A DNA stretch of 64,000 bases from Leisingera sp. S132 (GTDB lineage Bacteria; Pseudomonadota; Alphaproteobacteria; Rhodobacterales; Rhodobacteraceae): contig NZ_CP083553.1 of the NCBI RefSeq assembly GCF_025144465.1, forward strand, positions 2,168,001-2,232,000. Direction: 5' to 3'. The notes below the pieces were generated by a model that was not told the DNA's origin, did no database searches, and saw only the letters and a list, made by a program, of their open reading frames with translations. Positions within the stretch are counted from its first letter, which is position 1. Every line of letters begins with the position of its first letter. Both the position numbers and the translations under genes were made by a program. Shown here piece by piece: positions 22,239 through 31,218 of the stretch.

Positions 22239-24185
22239 ATGGCCCAAATCTCTCTCACTTTCCCCGATGGCAATGCACGCTCCTACGACGCAGGTATAAC
22301 CCCTGCGCAGGTGGCAGCCGGCATCTCGACCTCGCTGGCCAAGAAGGCCATCTCTGCCACCGTCAACGATCAGCACTGGGACCTGCAGTGGCCGATCGAA
22401 GGCGACGCCACCATCGCCATCCACACCATGAAGGATGAGGTCCAGGCCAATGAGCTGATCCGCCACGATCTGGCGCACGTCATGGCGCGTGCGGTGCAGG
22501 AAATCTGGCCCGACACCAAGGTCACCATCGGCCCGGTCATTGAAAACGGCTGGTACTACGACTTCGACCGGTCCGAGCCCTTCACCCCCGAGGACCTCGG
22601 CGCCATCGAGAAAAAGATGAAGGAAATCATCAACAAGCGTGATGAGGTCCGGACCGAGGTGTGGGAGCGCGACCGCGCGATCCGGCATTACACCGACAAC
22701 AACGAACCCTATAAGGTCGAGCTGATCGAGAGCATCCCGGGCGATGAGCCGCTGCGGATGTACTGGCACGGCGACTGGCAGGACCTCTGCCGCGGCCCGC
22801 ACCTGCAGCACACCGGCCAGCTGCCGGGCGACGCGTTCAAGCTGATGAGCATCGCAGGCGCCTACTGGCGCGGCGACAGCTCCCGCGCGATGCTGCAGCG
22901 GATCTACGGCGTTGCCTTCACCGGCAAGGAGAAGCTGAAGGCGCATCTCCACATGCTGGAAGAGGCCGCCAAGCGCGATCACCGCAAGCTGGGCCGCGAG
23001 ATGGACCTGTTCCACATGCAGGAAGAGGCGCCGGGCCAGATCTTCTGGCACCCGAACGGCTGGACCGTCTACACCCAGCTGCAAGACTACATGCGCCGCC
23101 AGCAGCGCAAGGGCGGCTATGTCGAGGTGAACACCCCGCAGGTCGTCGACCGCAAGCTGTGGGAGGCCTCGGGCCACTGGGACAAATACCAGGAGAACAT
23201 GTTTATCGTCGAAGTCGACGAGGAGCACGCCCGCGAGAAGGCGGTGAACGCGCTGAAGCCGATGAACTGCCCCTGCCACGTGCAGATCTTCAACCAGGGC
23301 CTCAAGTCCTACCGCGACCTGCCGCTGCGCATGGCCGAATTCGGCTCTTGCAACCGGTATGAGCCCTCGGGCGCGCTGCACGGCATCATGCGGGTGCGCG
23401 GCTTTACTCAGGACGACGGCCACATCTTCTGTTCTGAGGATCAGATTGAATCTGAGACCGCGGAATTCATCAACTTCCTGTCCAAGATCTACAAGGATCT
23501 GGGCTTTGAGAAGTTCTCGGTCAAATTCTCTGACCGCCCGGACACCCGTGCCGGGTCCGATGAGGTCTGGGACAAGGCCGAGGCCGCGCTTTTGTCCGCC
23601 ACCCGGGCCGCCGGAATCGAGCCGGAACTGAACCCGGGCGAAGGTGCCTTTTACGGCCCCAAGCTGGAGTTCGTGCTGACCGACGCCATCGGCCGCGACT
23701 GGCAGTGCGGCACCCACCAGGTGGACTTCGTGCTGCCGGAACGCCTGGACGCGACCTATATCGGCGCCGACGGTGCCAAGCACCGCCCGGTCATGCTGCA
23801 CCGCGCGACCCTTGGAAGCTTCGAGCGTTTCATCGGAATCCTGATCGAGGAACACGCCGGCAAGCTGCCGTTCTGGCTGGCACCGCGTCAGGTTGTGGTC
23901 GCCTCGATCACCTCCGACGCGGATGACTACGTGCAGGAGGTCGTGGCCGAGCTGAAGAAGGCAGGCGTGCGCGCCGAGGCCGATATCCGCAACGAGAAGA
24001 TCAACTACAAAGTCCGCGAGCATTCGGTGGGCAAGGTTCCGGTCATTCTCGCCGTCGGCCACCGCGAGGTGGAGGAACGCACAGTGTCTGTCCGCCGTCT
24101 TGGCGAAAAACAGACCAACGTGGAAAGCCTCGAAAATGTTACAAAGGCGCTGGCGGTCGAGGCCACCCCGCCGGACCTGCTGTAA
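22239..24185 (+). CDS. thrS: Threonyl-tRNA synthetase
   Basis: A 648-residue class II synthetase that charges tRNA-Thr. Domains are in order: TGS domain (about 1-62, [13 protein letters not shown]), editing domain with HxxxH ([12 protein letters not shown]), catalytic core with motif 1 region, the zinc cysteine in [10 protein letters not shown], motif 2 ([16 protein letters not shown]), motif 3 ([19 protein letters not shown]), and the anticodon domain (about 545-648). Length fits the family (E. coli 642). The start at 22239 is chosen by the TGS alignment and the GAGGAG site. A strong terminator follows. Confidence 0.97.
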
Positions 24186-24210
24186 CATTCCACCCCGAAA
24201 ACAGCATCAG

Positions 24211-24239
24211 CGGCCCCCATCCGGGGGCCGTTTTGTTTC
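24211..24239 (+). terminator. Terminator of thrS
   Basis: Perfect stem CGGCCCCC/GGGGGCCG, loop ATCC, followed by TTTTGTTT. Confidence 0.9.
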
Positions 24240-24243
24240 AAAA

Positions 24244-24317
24244 CCGGGTAAAACCCGGCGATTTCAGCCCTTTGCGCTGCAATCCTGTCTCACATGCGCT
24301 GACGCAGACGTGAGACA
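24244..24317. promoter_or_regulatory. Nested inverted repeats upstream of bufferin operon
   Basis: CCGGGT/ACCCGG with a three-base loop lies at 24244-24258. TGTCTCAC (24286-24293) pairs exactly with GTGAGACA (24310-24317), enclosing a second stem TGCG/CGCA. A third palindrome, AACC-ATG-GGTT, lies further down near 24340-24350. The elements lie between the thrS terminator and the precursor gene and may be operators or leader hairpins; no ECF-type promoter could be assigned. Confidence 0.45.
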
Positions 24318-24406
24318 CGGCCTCGTGACTTAAATTCCTGAAAACCATGGGTTAGTGTTTTCCTGTCAACACGACACCGCACGTTAAACCGAAAGGAATT
24401 CACGAG

Positions 24407-24712
24407 ATGTCGACCACCGCAAAATCCCTGGCCGTTGCCAGCGCCGTTGCCGCCGCTCTGACCGCAGCTTCGACCATCCCCGCTGCTGCTGCCACCAAGG
24501 AAAAATGCTACGGCGTTTCGCTGGCAGGCCAGAACGACTGCGCCGCCGGCCCCGGCACCACCTGCGCAGGCACCTCGACCACCGACTACCAGGGCAACGC
24601 CTGGACCTTGGTGGATGCCGGCACCTGCGAGGGCATGGAACTGCCCGCAATGGCAGACGGCACTGAGCGCAAAGGCTCGCTCGAGCCGCTGGAGCGCGAC
24701 TTGCCGGCATAA
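24407..24712 (+). CDS. bufA1: BufA1-like bufferin precursor peptide (DUF2282)
   Basis: A 101-residue DUF2282 protein with a Sec-type signal peptide (about 1-29, ending PAAAA). Four cysteines match the BufA1 pattern: Cys34 (KEKCYG), Cys45 (GQNDCAAG), Cys53 (TTCAG) and Cys74 (AGTCEGM). In bufferins, DUF692/MNIO enzymes convert core cysteines to thiooxazole heterocycles, and the secreted product sequesters copper. The next three genes are the known partners, in the known order. AAAGGAA precedes the ATG. The modification is inferred from homology of the whole operon. Confidence 0.85.
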
Positions 24713-24781
24713 GTTCGGCCTGATTTCCGGGGCGGGAGTGTAAGTTCCCGCCCCTTTTGCACCCGGACCACAGGACACGCC

Positions 24782-25636
24782 ATGCTCGACTCTGCTGCAC
24801 ATGACAGGCTGCCCGCCGCCCCCGGCGTCGGATATAAGCCGCAGCATTTCGCACAGATCACCGCCGATCCGGGCAGCGTCAAATGGCTGGAAATCCACGC
24901 CGAAAACTACATGGGCGACGGCGGGCGTCCAATTGCGCAGCTGCGCCACCTGTCTGAAAACTTCGCCATGTCGGTGCATGGCGTCGGCCTGTCGATCGGC
25001 GGCGAAGGCCCCCTGGACGCAGACCATCTTGCCCGGCTCAAGCATCTGGTTGGCTGGCTGACCCCTGCCAGCTTCTCCGAACATCTGGCCTGGTCCACCC
25101 ACGACAGTCATTTCTACAACGACTTGCTGCCGCTGCCCTACACGGATGCGAGCCTGCAGCGGATCTGCGATCACATCAACGAATTGCAGGACACCATCGG
25201 CCGCCGGATGCTGCTGGAAAACCCCTCCAGCTACCTCGCCTTTGCCGAGAGCACCTGGTCCGAGCCGGAGTTCCTGGCGGAAATCTCCCGCCGCACCGGC
25301 TGCGGGCTGCTTCTGGACGTCAACAACGTCTTTGTCTCCGCCACCAACCTCGACTTCTCGCCCCAGGGCTATATCGACGCCTTTCCTCTGGACAAGGTCG
25401 GTGAGATCCACCTCGGCGGCCACGACGAGGATGTGGACGACCATGGCCGCCCTCTGCTGATCGACAGCCACGGGCGTGAGGTGGTGGACCCGGTCTGGGC
25501 GCTCTTGGATTACACGCTGGCAAAATCCGGCCCCAAGCCGGTGCTGATCGAATGGGACAATGACGTGCCGGACTGGCCGGTGCTGGAGGCTGAAGCTGCC
25601 CGCGCCGCAACCGCGCTGGAGCGCGTCCCGGCATGA
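24782..25636 (+). CDS. bufB: MNIO-family (DUF692) peptide-modifying oxidase BufB
   Basis: A 284-residue multinuclear non-heme iron-dependent oxidative enzyme of the DUF692 TIM-barrel family. Characteristic segments with metal-binding His/Glu/Asp are seen: WLEIHAENYMG, MSVHGVGLSIGG, SEHLAWSTHD, LLENPSSYL, GLLLDVNNVFVS, EIHLGGHDED and LIDSHGREV. It installs oxazolone/thiooxazole-type groups on the cysteines of the precursor. It lies 69 bases downstream of the precursor gene and overlaps the partner gene by four bases (ATGA). Confidence 0.92.
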   Translation: MLDSAAHDRLPAAPGVGYKPQHFAQITADPGSVKWLEIHAENYMGDGGRPIAQLRHLSENFAMSVHGVGLSIGGEGPLDADHLARLKHLVGWLTPASFSEHLAWSTHDSHFYNDLLPLPYTDASLQRICDHINELQDTIGRRMLLENPSSYLAFAESTWSEPEFLAEISRRTGCGLLLDVNNVFVSATNLDFSPQGYIDAFPLDKVGEIHLGGHDEDVDDHGRPLLIDSHGREVVDPVWALLDYTLAKSGPKPVLIEWDNDVPDWPVLEAEAARAATALERVPA

Positions 25637-26388
25637 GCGTCAGCCAGACAGAGTTCACCCGCGCCATGATGGATGCGGGCCAGCCTGTGCCGGACGGTCT
25701 GATTGACCATCAGGACCAGCCCGCCGGGCGCCGTTTCAGTGTCTACCGCAACAACGTGGCGGTCTCCCTGACAGAGGCCATGCACAGCGCCTTTCCGGTG
25801 ATTGCCAAGCTTCTGGGCAAGCAGAACATGGATGGTCTGGCAGGCATCTTTCTGCGCCAGCATCCGCCGTCCTCGCCGCTGATGATGTTCTACGGCGAAC
25901 ACTTCCCCGCCTTCCTCGAAGGCATGGAGCAGCTCCGGCATCTGGGCTACCTTGGCGATGTCGCCCGGCTGGAGCTGGCCCTGCGCCGCGCCTACCACTC
26001 CGCCGATGCCGCGCCCGTTGCACCTGAGGCGCTTGGCGGGCTGACGCCGGATCAGCTGATGGGCACCCGCCTGTCTCTGGCTCCCGCAGTGCAGGTTATC
26101 TGTTCGCCTTGGCCCATTCACGCCATCTGGCGCTACAACACCGAAGACGGCGCGCCCAAGCCTGAGCCGCAGGCCCAGGACGTGCTGATCACTCGCCCTG
26201 AATTCGACTCCATTCCCCAGGTCCTGCCCTCCGCGGGCGCACTCTGGATCCGCGCCCTGATGCAGGGTGCCACCATCGGCGAAGCGCTGGAACAGGCCGC
26301 CGCCGCAGACGAAACCTTCGACCTGGGTGCCACGCTGGCCCTGCTGTTGCAGGGCGGCGCGATCACCGGATTGGACAGCAAAGGGTAA
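25633..26388 (+). CDS. bufC: BufC/HvfC partner protein (DUF2063)
   Basis: A 251-residue protein whose N-terminal DUF2063 domain (RRFSVYRNNVAVSLTEAM, then AFPVIAKLLG, about residues 30-60) is the DNA-binding-like fold used as recognition partner of MNIO enzymes. The C-terminal half (about 110-250) is the less conserved part. In bufferin and related MNIO systems this protein binds the precursor and presents it to the DUF692 enzyme. Four-base overlap with bufB and a four-base gap to the DoxX gene indicate one operon. Confidence 0.88.
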   Translation: MSVSQTEFTRAMMDAGQPVPDGLIDHQDQPAGRRFSVYRNNVAVSLTEAMHSAFPVIAKLLGKQNMDGLAGIFLRQHPPSSPLMMFYGEHFPAFLEGMEQLRHLGYLGDVARLELALRRAYHSADAAPVAPEALGGLTPDQLMGTRLSLAPAVQVICSPWPIHAIWRYNTEDGAPKPEPQAQDVLITRPEFDSIPQVLPSAGALWIRALMQGATIGEALEQAAAADETFDLGATLALLLQGGAITGLDSKG

Positions 26389-26392
26389 ATCC

Positions 26393-26956
26393 ATGCACGC
26401 ACTTGTCTCCATTCACGACGCCGTCTTCCGCCAGGTGGAAAGGGGCGGCAACTGGCTGCTGCCGCTGGCGGCACGCTTTGTCTTTGCCTCCACCCTGCTG
26501 CTCTATTTCTGGAACTCAGGCCTGACCAAGCTGGGCGACGGCATCCTCGGCCTGTTCAGCCCCTCGATCGGCGCCTACAGCCAGATCTTCCCGAAACAGC
26601 TTGAGGCGGTGGGCTATGACGTTTCCCAGTTCGGATTGTTTCAGAAGCTGGTAGTGCTGGCCGGCACCTACGCCGAGTTCATCCTGCCGCTGCTGATCGT
26701 GATTGGCCTGCTGACCCGTCTCGCCTCGCTGGGCATGATCGGCTTCGTCATCGTGCAGTCGCTGACCGACATCTACGGGCACGGCGCAACCGACGATAAA
26801 ACCCTTGGCGCGCTGTTCGACCGCTTCCCCGACGCGGTGATCCTGGACCAGCGGCTGTTCTGGGTCTTCCTGCTGGCGGTTCTGGTGGTCAAGGGCGCAG
26901 GCGCCCTGTCTGTGGACGCCCTGCTGCGCAGCCGGATGGAACCGGCCATCGCCTGA
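26393..26956 (+). CDS. DoxX family membrane protein of the bufferin operon
   Basis: A 187-residue inner-membrane DoxX protein with four hydrophobic segments (about 22-42, 80-105, 108-125, 150-172). It starts four bases after bufC and is followed by a terminator at 26981, so it is the last gene of the operon. DoxX proteins regularly accompany DUF692/DUF2063 operons (HvfX in Haemophilus); their part in peptide maturation, electron transfer or export is not established. Confidence 0.88.
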   Translation: MHALVSIHDAVFRQVERGGNWLLPLAARFVFASTLLLYFWNSGLTKLGDGILGLFSPSIGAYSQIFPKQLEAVGYDVSQFGLFQKLVVLAGTYAEFILPLLIVIGLLTRLASLGMIGFVIVQSLTDIYGHGATDDKTLGALFDRFPDAVILDQRLFWVFLLAVLVVKGAGALSVDALLRSRMEPAIA

Positions 26957-26980
26957 CGCCACCAAGGCTAGAAAACAAGA

Positions 26981-27012
26981 AAAGGCGCCCTGCCCCCGGC
27001 AGCGGCGCCTTT
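26981..27012. terminator. Bidirectional terminator after bufferin operon
   Basis: AAAGGCGCC (26981-26989) pairs exactly with GGCGCCTTT (27004-27012). It stands between two convergent genes. Confidence 0.8.
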
Positions 27013-27033
27013 GTCATGTGGATTTATGATGGG

Positions 27034-27402
27034 TCAGAAATGCGCCTTGGGCTCATCCGGCTTACCCGCTGCCAGCGCCATCAGACCGCCCACCGCGGCA
27101 AAGCTGAGCGGGAAGATGGTAAAGACGTTGAGGCCAAAGCCCGCATACATCCCCGCCGCCGACCCCAGCAGCAGTATGCCGCCCCACAGGGCCCGCGCCC
27201 GTGCCATCGCACCGCCGGCAATCGCCAGCAGCGGCGACAGCACCGCCAGCAGCCGCAGCTTCTCCACGTTCTCAACCTGTTCGGCCAGCCCCTCAACCTC
27301 GCCGAAATGCTCCACCGCAGCGGTGTAGCCGTAGCCGAAGAACCCCACCACCATGCCGAAAATCCCGGCGATGATCCCCAGAACAAGGGCTGCATTACGC
27401 AT
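27034..27402 (-). CDS. Hypothetical four-helix membrane protein
   Basis: A 122-residue membrane protein with hydrophobic segments near 4-24, 50-66, 69-84 and 90-108, and an acidic loop in between (EHFGEVEGLAEQVENVEKL). I do not recognise the family. The start at 27402 is preferred, with GGGAGA upstream. It is convergent with the DoxX gene. Confidence 0.6.
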   Translation of the reverse strand: MRNAALVLGIIAGIFGMVVGFFGYGYTAAVEHFGEVEGLAEQVENVEKLRLLAVLSPLLAIAGGAMARARALWGGILLLGSAAGMYAGFGLNVFTIFPLSFAAVGGLMALAAGKPDEPKAHF

Positions 27403-27444
27403 CAATTCTCTCCCAGAAACTGCGGTAACGACATATGCGCCGCC

Positions 27445-30656: not shown

Positions 30657-31154
30657 TTAATAGATGTAACGGATCTGGTCCGACCAGTAGCGCTCCATGC
30701 GTTTCAGAGAGGCGGTAATATCCTCGATCCCTTCGGAGGAGATCACGTTCTTGCCTTCCAGCCCTTCGGCATGGCGGGAAAACAGCGCCGAAACGATATC
30801 GCGGATCTCGCGGCCGCGCTGGGTCAGGCGCACCCGCACGGACCGGCGGTCAATCTCGCAGCGCTGATGATGCATATAGCCCATCTCGACCAGTTTCTTG
30901 AGGTTGTAGCTGACATTGCTGCCCTGATAGTAGCCGCGGGTTTTCAATTCCCCTGCGGTCACCTCGTTGTCGCCGATATTGAACAGCAGCAGCGCTTGAA
31001 CCGCATTGATTTCCAATACACCAACGCGTTCGAACTCGTCCTTGATGACGTCCAGCAGCAGACGGTGAAGGCGCTCAAGCAGACCCAGCGCCTCCAGGTA
31101 GCCAGTCATGAAACCCTTGCGGTCCACCTGGCCAATTGGCAATTCCATACTCAT
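30657..31154 (-). CDS. petP: MarR-family regulator, PetP-like
   Basis: A 165-residue winged-helix regulator. The MarR domain lies at about residues 25-130: EINAVQALLLFNIG, then GSNVSYNLKKLVEMGYMHHQ as recognition helix and DRRSVRVRLTQRG as wing. Sequence character matches PetP of Rhodobacter capsulatus, there adjacent to petR; no petR is seen here. ATG 31154 is chosen from GGAG six bases upstream among several close ATGs. It is the last gene of a minus-strand run with sdhE and an XRE regulator, but 76 bases away. Confidence 0.75.
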   Translation of the reverse strand: MSMELPIGQVDRKGFMTGYLEALGLLERLHRLLLDVIKDEFERVGVLEINAVQALLLFNIGDNEVTAGELKTRGYYQGSNVSYNLKKLVEMGYMHHQRCEIDRRSVRVRLTQRGREIRDIVSALFSRHAEGLEGKNVISSEGIEDITASLKRMERYWSDQIRYIY

Positions 31155-31218
31155 TCGCATCTCCGACTCGAATTTGCTTCTGAGACAAGATGCCAACAAT
31201 TCCCGAAAAATCGGTTAA

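Follow-up and report, generated by a model that had tools for sequence, protein, structure and literature searches.

The 64,000-nucleotide (nt) window analyzed here (C1:2168001-2232000, contig NZ_CP083553.1) belongs to the genome of the roseobacter Leisingera sp. S132, which comprises 4.69 Mb in 7 contigs. Positions 24407-26956 of the window very probably constitute a complete Buf1-type bufferin operon, in which the precursor gene bufA is followed by bufB, bufC and doxX, and a conserved double box precedes it (Table 1). A sequence-only reading of the same DNA had proposed a bufferin-type architecture (BufA1, MNIO, DUF2063, DoxX) at this place. Its coordinates and strand were correct, and the first gene, on whose assignment to DUF2282 the proposal hung, matched PF10048. 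Profile searches with the DUF2282, DUF692 and DUF2063 models matched all three genes, and the DUF692, DUF2063 and DoxX genes, all scoring above the Pfam cut-offs, follow bufA with the overlaps or short gaps that had been described (69 nt between bufA and bufB, a 4-nt overlap of bufB and bufC, and 4 nt between bufC and doxX). The architecture was supported on every feature that can be tested in the sequence.

Table 1. Features of the bufferin locus, in coordinates of the window
Feature	Position	Strand	Evidence
Terminator-like hairpin 3' of thrS, separating thrS from bufA	24209..24232	+	Pattern scan/folding
Conserved dyad/tandem box TGACGCAGACGTGAGACACGGCCTCGTGA, proposed operator, 29 bp	24300..24328	+	Conservation among relatives
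-35-like TTAAAT, 1 nt after the dyad	24330..24335	+	T77, T62, N, A61, A45, C46 of 80
-10-like TAGTGT, 17-nt spacer	24353..24358	+	TAnnnT in relatives
Likely ribosome-binding site AAAGGA	24392..24397	+	Read from sequence
bufA, DUF2282 bufferin-1 precursor, 101 amino acids (aa)	24407..24712	+	PF10048 85.5 bits, cut-off 22.4
bufB, MNIO maturase (DUF692), 284 aa	24782..25636	+	PF05114 336.8 bits, cut-off 25
bufC, DUF2063-RRE partner (PME type 1), 251 aa	25633..26388	+	PF09836 82.2 bits, cut-off 27.2
doxX, DoxX-family membrane protein, 187 aa	26393..26956	+	PF07681 31.1 bits, cut-off 23.6
Terminator-like hairpin 3' of doxX, between convergent genes	26979..27015		-25.7 kcal/mol, z -5.3

Relatives of the operon were collected with a BufB-based scan, which gave at least 586 confirmed loci, and the best 80 were examined for gene content; together with the window they make up 81 loci, one of which (L058) begins at a contig end inside bufA. 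Among these best 80 of at least 586, the closest BufB matches came from Leisingera (up to 98% identity), the remaining records being titled mostly as other Rhodobacteraceae or roseobacter genera and some merely as Alphaproteobacteria. One record titled Nocardioides marinus looks mislabelled, judging by its BufB identity of 85%. The genes bufA, bufB and bufC were found together in 80/80 relatives, indicating that the cluster is not a product of chance. The gene doxX was present in 79/80, the contig of the exception (L055) ending before the gene, and bufC was split into two pieces in one locus (L063). Profile searches of the Leisingera genome gave one match each for PF10048, PF05114 and PF09836, with no second gene of any of the three. 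In a family-wide survey of 150 genomes, one per genus, DUF2282 was found in 110 genomes, at 112 places in all. The Leisingera operon is thus ordinary in kind, a complete Buf1 operon of an already known type.

Upstream of bufA the relatives have in common a dyad of the form TNAC-N6-GTGNNNCAC-N6-GTNA. Counts for this region cover the window plus 79 relatives (80 sequences in all), since L058 lacks upstream sequence. The box core GTGANNCAC-N5-YGTGA was intact in 64 sequences, whereas 13 had one mismatch, 2 had two and 1 had four; none of 1,600 mononucleotide shuffles had fewer than two core mismatches, as against 77/80 real sequences with at most one. The fixed positions of the dyad carry about 1.1-2 bits, and the spacer between the -35 and -10 elements 0.01-0.49 bits. 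A TAnnnT hexamer was found 24 nt after the dyad in 55/80 sequences and 25 nt after it in 15/80, positions which leave a spacer of 17-18 nt to the TTNAAN element adjoining the dyad. A search for an RNA element before bufA gave no Rfam match near the gathering score. The box is without description in the bufferin and SigF literature covered, within the excerpts available of PMC12452194, PMC12668002, PMC3511200 and PMC8224329, the form in which these sources are cited throughout.

The specificity of the box was assessed with R1, a sequence-only model of the box built from 46 bufA sites, that of the window among them. In the Leisingera genome, for which 150 of the 1,527 first-look candidates were scored, R1 revealed one strong site at 38.2 bits and a next match of 17 bits. 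The latter lies inside a 453-aa open reading frame (ORF) that resembles a dGTPase. When the genome was searched exhaustively for the pattern, every other place had at least two mismatches. In the 150 family genomes, where 45 candidates per genome were scored with stricter filters, R1 gave 66 matches in 59 genomes at E values up to 0.05. The proportion of matches lying within 600 bp 5' of a DUF2282 gene was 33/33 at 25 bits or more, 41/42 at 20 or more, 45/50 at 18 or more and 54/66 overall (52 genomes), 2 of these 54 being the same sites on the other strand; the test genomes possibly overlap the training genomes, so that the sensitivity is not an independent estimate. Among 20 bufA loci fetched for lacking an R1 match (start sites uncertain in some), the box core was present with at most one mismatch in 4. 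The informative outcome of these scans, within the limits of the scoring, is that they gave no other strong sites. A half-box regulon was also considered and rejected: the pattern WCACG-N4-CGTGA occurs at six places in the genome, no more than its reversed control. One of the six, about 100 bp ahead of an ORF resembling cysteine synthase, was judged to be a chance occurrence.

The closest known system is the bufferin-1 operon of Caulobacter vibrioides (CC3254-CC3257), which according to the published gene table, on which the comparison rests rather than on a sequence alignment, likewise contains DUF2282, DUF692, DUF2063 and DoxX genes in the same order (PMC3511200). That operon is a member of the SigF regulon, with NrsF as the negative regulator and GTAACC-N16-CGAA as the SigF-binding sequence (PMC3511200). 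Its responsiveness to metals is due to the SigF/NrsF system. In contrast to Caulobacter, no NrsF was found in Leisingera, whose genome gave no PF06532 match at E values up to 0.1, and the operon instead carries the double box before a sigma-70-like promoter. Inspection by eye of the 130 nt before Leisingera bufA found no GTAAC, and hence no GTAAC-N16-CGAA promoter.

The same division was observed across the family. NrsF scored above the cut-off in 22 of the 150 genomes, 18 of which have bufA; in 14 of these 18 it lies within 3 kb of bufA on the same contig, and in 12 of the 14 it is divergent. NrsF above the cut-off was absent from all 52 genomes carrying the box at bufA and present in 18 of the 58 other bufA genomes (Fisher p 2.5e-6, uncorrected for relatedness), and 40 bufA genomes had neither box nor NrsF at these thresholds. 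The pattern GTAAC-N16-CGAA, which departs from the published GTAACC form at one position, was found before bufA in seven distinct divergent genomes, all with NrsF near bufA; at two further NrsF loci (G029 and G068) GTAAC is present by eye and CGAA is not at that spacing. With a spacer of 15-18 the GTAAC/CGAA pair was also found in 5/80 relatives and in 0.3% of shuffles, and those five matches appear to be the thrS stop region, like the GTAAC at 24182 in the window.

On balance, we consider it slightly more likely than not that the Leisingera operon uses no SigF/NrsF control and relies instead on a sigma-70-like promoter with a double box. For the broader reading, that within one family bufferin control switched from an anti-sigma/ECF sigma system to a sigma-70-like promoter served by a double operator of its own, apparently a single full-strength site per genome, we estimate a probability of roughly 55%. 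The box would then appear to have replaced the sensor system of Caulobacter. In the proposed mechanism the promoter would be read under a DNA-binding protein located at the double box, directly upstream of the -35 element, and we infer that such a regulator would activate the operon.

Several observations weigh against this reading. At two to three mismatches the Leisingera genome has more places than the reversed control (24 rows, which include 2 for the site itself, versus 6). R1 was trained on bufA sites and scored part of the candidates, so that its failure to find another strong site is not an exhaustive result, and the half-box is not enriched in the genome. No regulator was traced for the box. 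A scan of the region for a sigma-70 consensus promoter found none, and the -35 element is therefore regarded as weak. One box genome (G116) has an NrsF-like match, below the cut-off and with two stops.

An alternative that is compatible with the switch of control, and that we hold possible at somewhat less than even odds, is that the box is an ancestral activator site beside a sigma-F-type promoter, and that in roseobacters SigF/NrsF control was lost and the box was duplicated. It draws on the half-box CAC-N6-GTGA, which was sought upstream of bufA in 30 family loci and 30 class-wide loci, 29 being anchored in each set. The half-box was present in 23/29 family and 9/29 class-wide loci, as against mononucleotide shuffles (means 0.8 and 0.6, respectively, maximum 4 each), and the reversed half-box was found in none of either set. 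At 6 of the 8 family loci with GTAAC the half-box lies, by eye, 4-6 nt before it. On the other hand, only 2 of the 8 class-wide loci having GTAAC-N15-17-CGAA carry the half-box, which makes one shared ancestral layout doubtful and lowered our estimate from even odds; moreover, the class-wide set includes pairs of loci belonging to a single genus, and the controls were mononucleotide shuffles alone. Our own reading is that in the roseobacter lineage the bufferin operon would be driven by a new promoter and a doubled box.

It is also conceivable, though we think it unlikely, that the box is a repressor site, for instance of a repressor released by metal, and not an activator site. The dyad symmetry of the box and its near contact with the -35 element would suit a repressor, and position alone fits both roles. 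However, a -35 element so far from consensus is easier to reconcile with dependence on an activator, and the dyad stops on the upstream side of the -35 element instead of covering the promoter.

The precursor encoded by the operon has cysteines at positions 34, 45, 53 and 74, as the sequence-only reading had claimed. All four are kept in the window and in 79/80 relatives, the exception being L058, which is truncated by the contig end, and they are invariant in 42/42 sequences of a wider BufA set that includes 17 more divergent loci. Residues 1 to about 30 form a hydrophobic N-terminus, apparently a Sec-type signal region, and a small-x-Ala pattern stands before the mature start in the window as well as in 79/79 complete relatives. 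Among the NCBIfam models BufA gave a BufA2 match alone, below the cut-off (19.5 under 60). At two loci (L180 and L129) bufA is present in tandem, so that bufB follows two consecutive DUF2282 genes. Published Buf1 also has four cysteines, of which the central pair is turned into thiooxazoles and the outer pair is joined by a disulfide (PMC12452194); thiooxazole formation costs 4 Da, according to a passage on fontiphorin (PMC12668002). Since Leisingera BufA shares the cysteine plan of Buf1, two modified cysteines (45 and 53) are expected and not four, and Cys34 and Cys74 are predicted to form a disulfide, on which the structure model of BufA was too poor (pLDDT 57) to be informative. The earlier proposal that the cysteines are oxidised to heterocycles would thus hold for the central pair and not for the outer one.

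BufB reached the NCBIfam model NF050167 (MNIO_BufB) with 368.7 bits, above the curated cut-off of 310. It aligns with 3bww, with the DUF692 chain of 8hci and with MbnB, and conservation across the 81 sequences reaches at least 97% at 35 His, Asp, Glu, Asn or Cys positions. A search of BufC by sequence against solved structures gave no match, and fold comparison was used instead. The full-length model of BufC was confident (pLDDT 94.8), and its Foldseek matches at E<0.001 were 8hci_A, 8hi7_A (TglHI complex) and 3dee. E was about 5e-6 for chain A of the TglHI complex and 5.4e-4 for 3dee (NGO1945), as against only 0.6-2.2 for MbnC and the RRE protein TbiB1. BufC resembles chain A of 8hci, the DUF692 protein being chain D according to the BufB alignment. 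The NCBIfam HvfC equivalog was not reached by BufC (50.7 under 142), nor the HvfX model in the operon (27.6 under 80); both models are named for the related Hvf (oxazolin) system. As modelled, BufC is a PME type 1 partner in which a DUF2063 domain is fused to an RRE fold. Clusters of the MNIO-PME type 1 kind (oxazolin, fontiphorin and gonophorin, for which the name captophorins is proposed) likewise combine an MNIO with a DUF2063-containing partner and perform 5-thiooxazole chemistry (PMC12668002). Their precursors contain EGKCG motifs, whereas the Leisingera precursor is a DUF2282 protein with four single cysteines.

By analogy with these systems, BufA would be made with a Sec signal and presented by the DUF2063 and RRE domains of BufC to BufB in the cytoplasm, where this multi-iron oxidase would convert Cys45 and Cys53 into 5-thiooxazoles. 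The modified BufA would then be exported, the Cys34-Cys74 disulfide would form, and in the periplasm the product would chelate copper or a different soft metal; DoxX would act as a membrane accessory. The thiooxazole chemistry, the export and the metal are all transferred from published relatives. The earlier suggestion of a role in metal homeostasis in a roseobacter stands as to the roseobacter setting; the periplasmic copper role would be inherited from Caulobacter, where the Buf1 product is a chelator of both Cu(I) and Cu(II) (PMC12452194). Copper as an inducer is not transferable from Caulobacter to the Leisingera operon, because NrsF was not found in the Leisingera genome.

That the cluster serves mainly against cadmium, chromate, gold, silver or oxidative stress, copper being secondary, is improbable in our view. 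A response to chromium and cadmium is reported for the Caulobacter SigF regulon that includes these genes, and one to Au, Ag and Cu for the homologous Cupriavidus cluster (PMC3511200, PMC8224329); the lack of an NrsF match in Leisingera also leaves room for another stress. The gold-induced gig operon of Cupriavidus metallidurans, which is likened here by description and differs from the Leisingera operon in its host, is called a bufferin cluster too (PMC12452194). However, the Caulobacter sigF mutant is Cu-sensitive (PMC8224329) and not more sensitive to Cr or Cd (PMC3511200, PMC8224329), and the copper chelation by Buf1 speaks for copper as well.

The surroundings of the operon bear on one last explanation of the box, namely that it belongs to thrS, as a terminator or attenuator, and not to bufA. 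The gene thrS lies upstream of bufA in 79/81 loci, window included, and of the other two L058 is without upstream sequence; yet we regard this explanation as very improbable, for thrS has a terminator-like hairpin of its own, L067 carries the box without thrS upstream, the half-box is also found at loci with a divergent NrsF gene beside bufA, and no T run follows the box. At the other end of the operon, the terminator proposed near 26981 coincides with a strong hairpin; the T tail is short on the plus strand, and the pattern scan lists the minus strand only. Terminator-like sites in the region numbered 3 against a shuffle mean of 2.0, that is, without excess.

The doxX slot is occupied by two DoxX types with a mutual identity of about 50%. 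Identity to doxX of the window was at least 60% in 40/79 relatives and lower in 39/79. In one Leisingera locus (L006, doxX at L006:7612-8148) bufB is 95% and doxX just 52% identical to those of the window, and doxX therefore seems to have been exchanged in place. Convergent with doxX, a small membrane-protein-like ORF on the minus strand (27034-27405), with a DUF4064 match below threshold, is kept in 64/81 loci, and an ArsC-family protein (PF03960; 27445-27789, minus strand) in 76/81. A MarR-type winged-helix regulator (30657-31199, minus strand), present in 27/81 loci within the fetched flanks, was considered as the box-binding protein and set aside, no tie to the box having been found.

Bufferins are recent, and the regulation described in the literature covered was established in Caulobacter. 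With a complete bufferin system in single copy, a single deletion in Leisingera would remove the whole pathway. The results indicate that the published Caulobacter sensor is not what switches on the Leisingera operon. The box is the part of the finding that a specialist may not expect, and its conservation offers a direct handle toward a possibly novel regulator for this widespread type of copper-buffering peptide.

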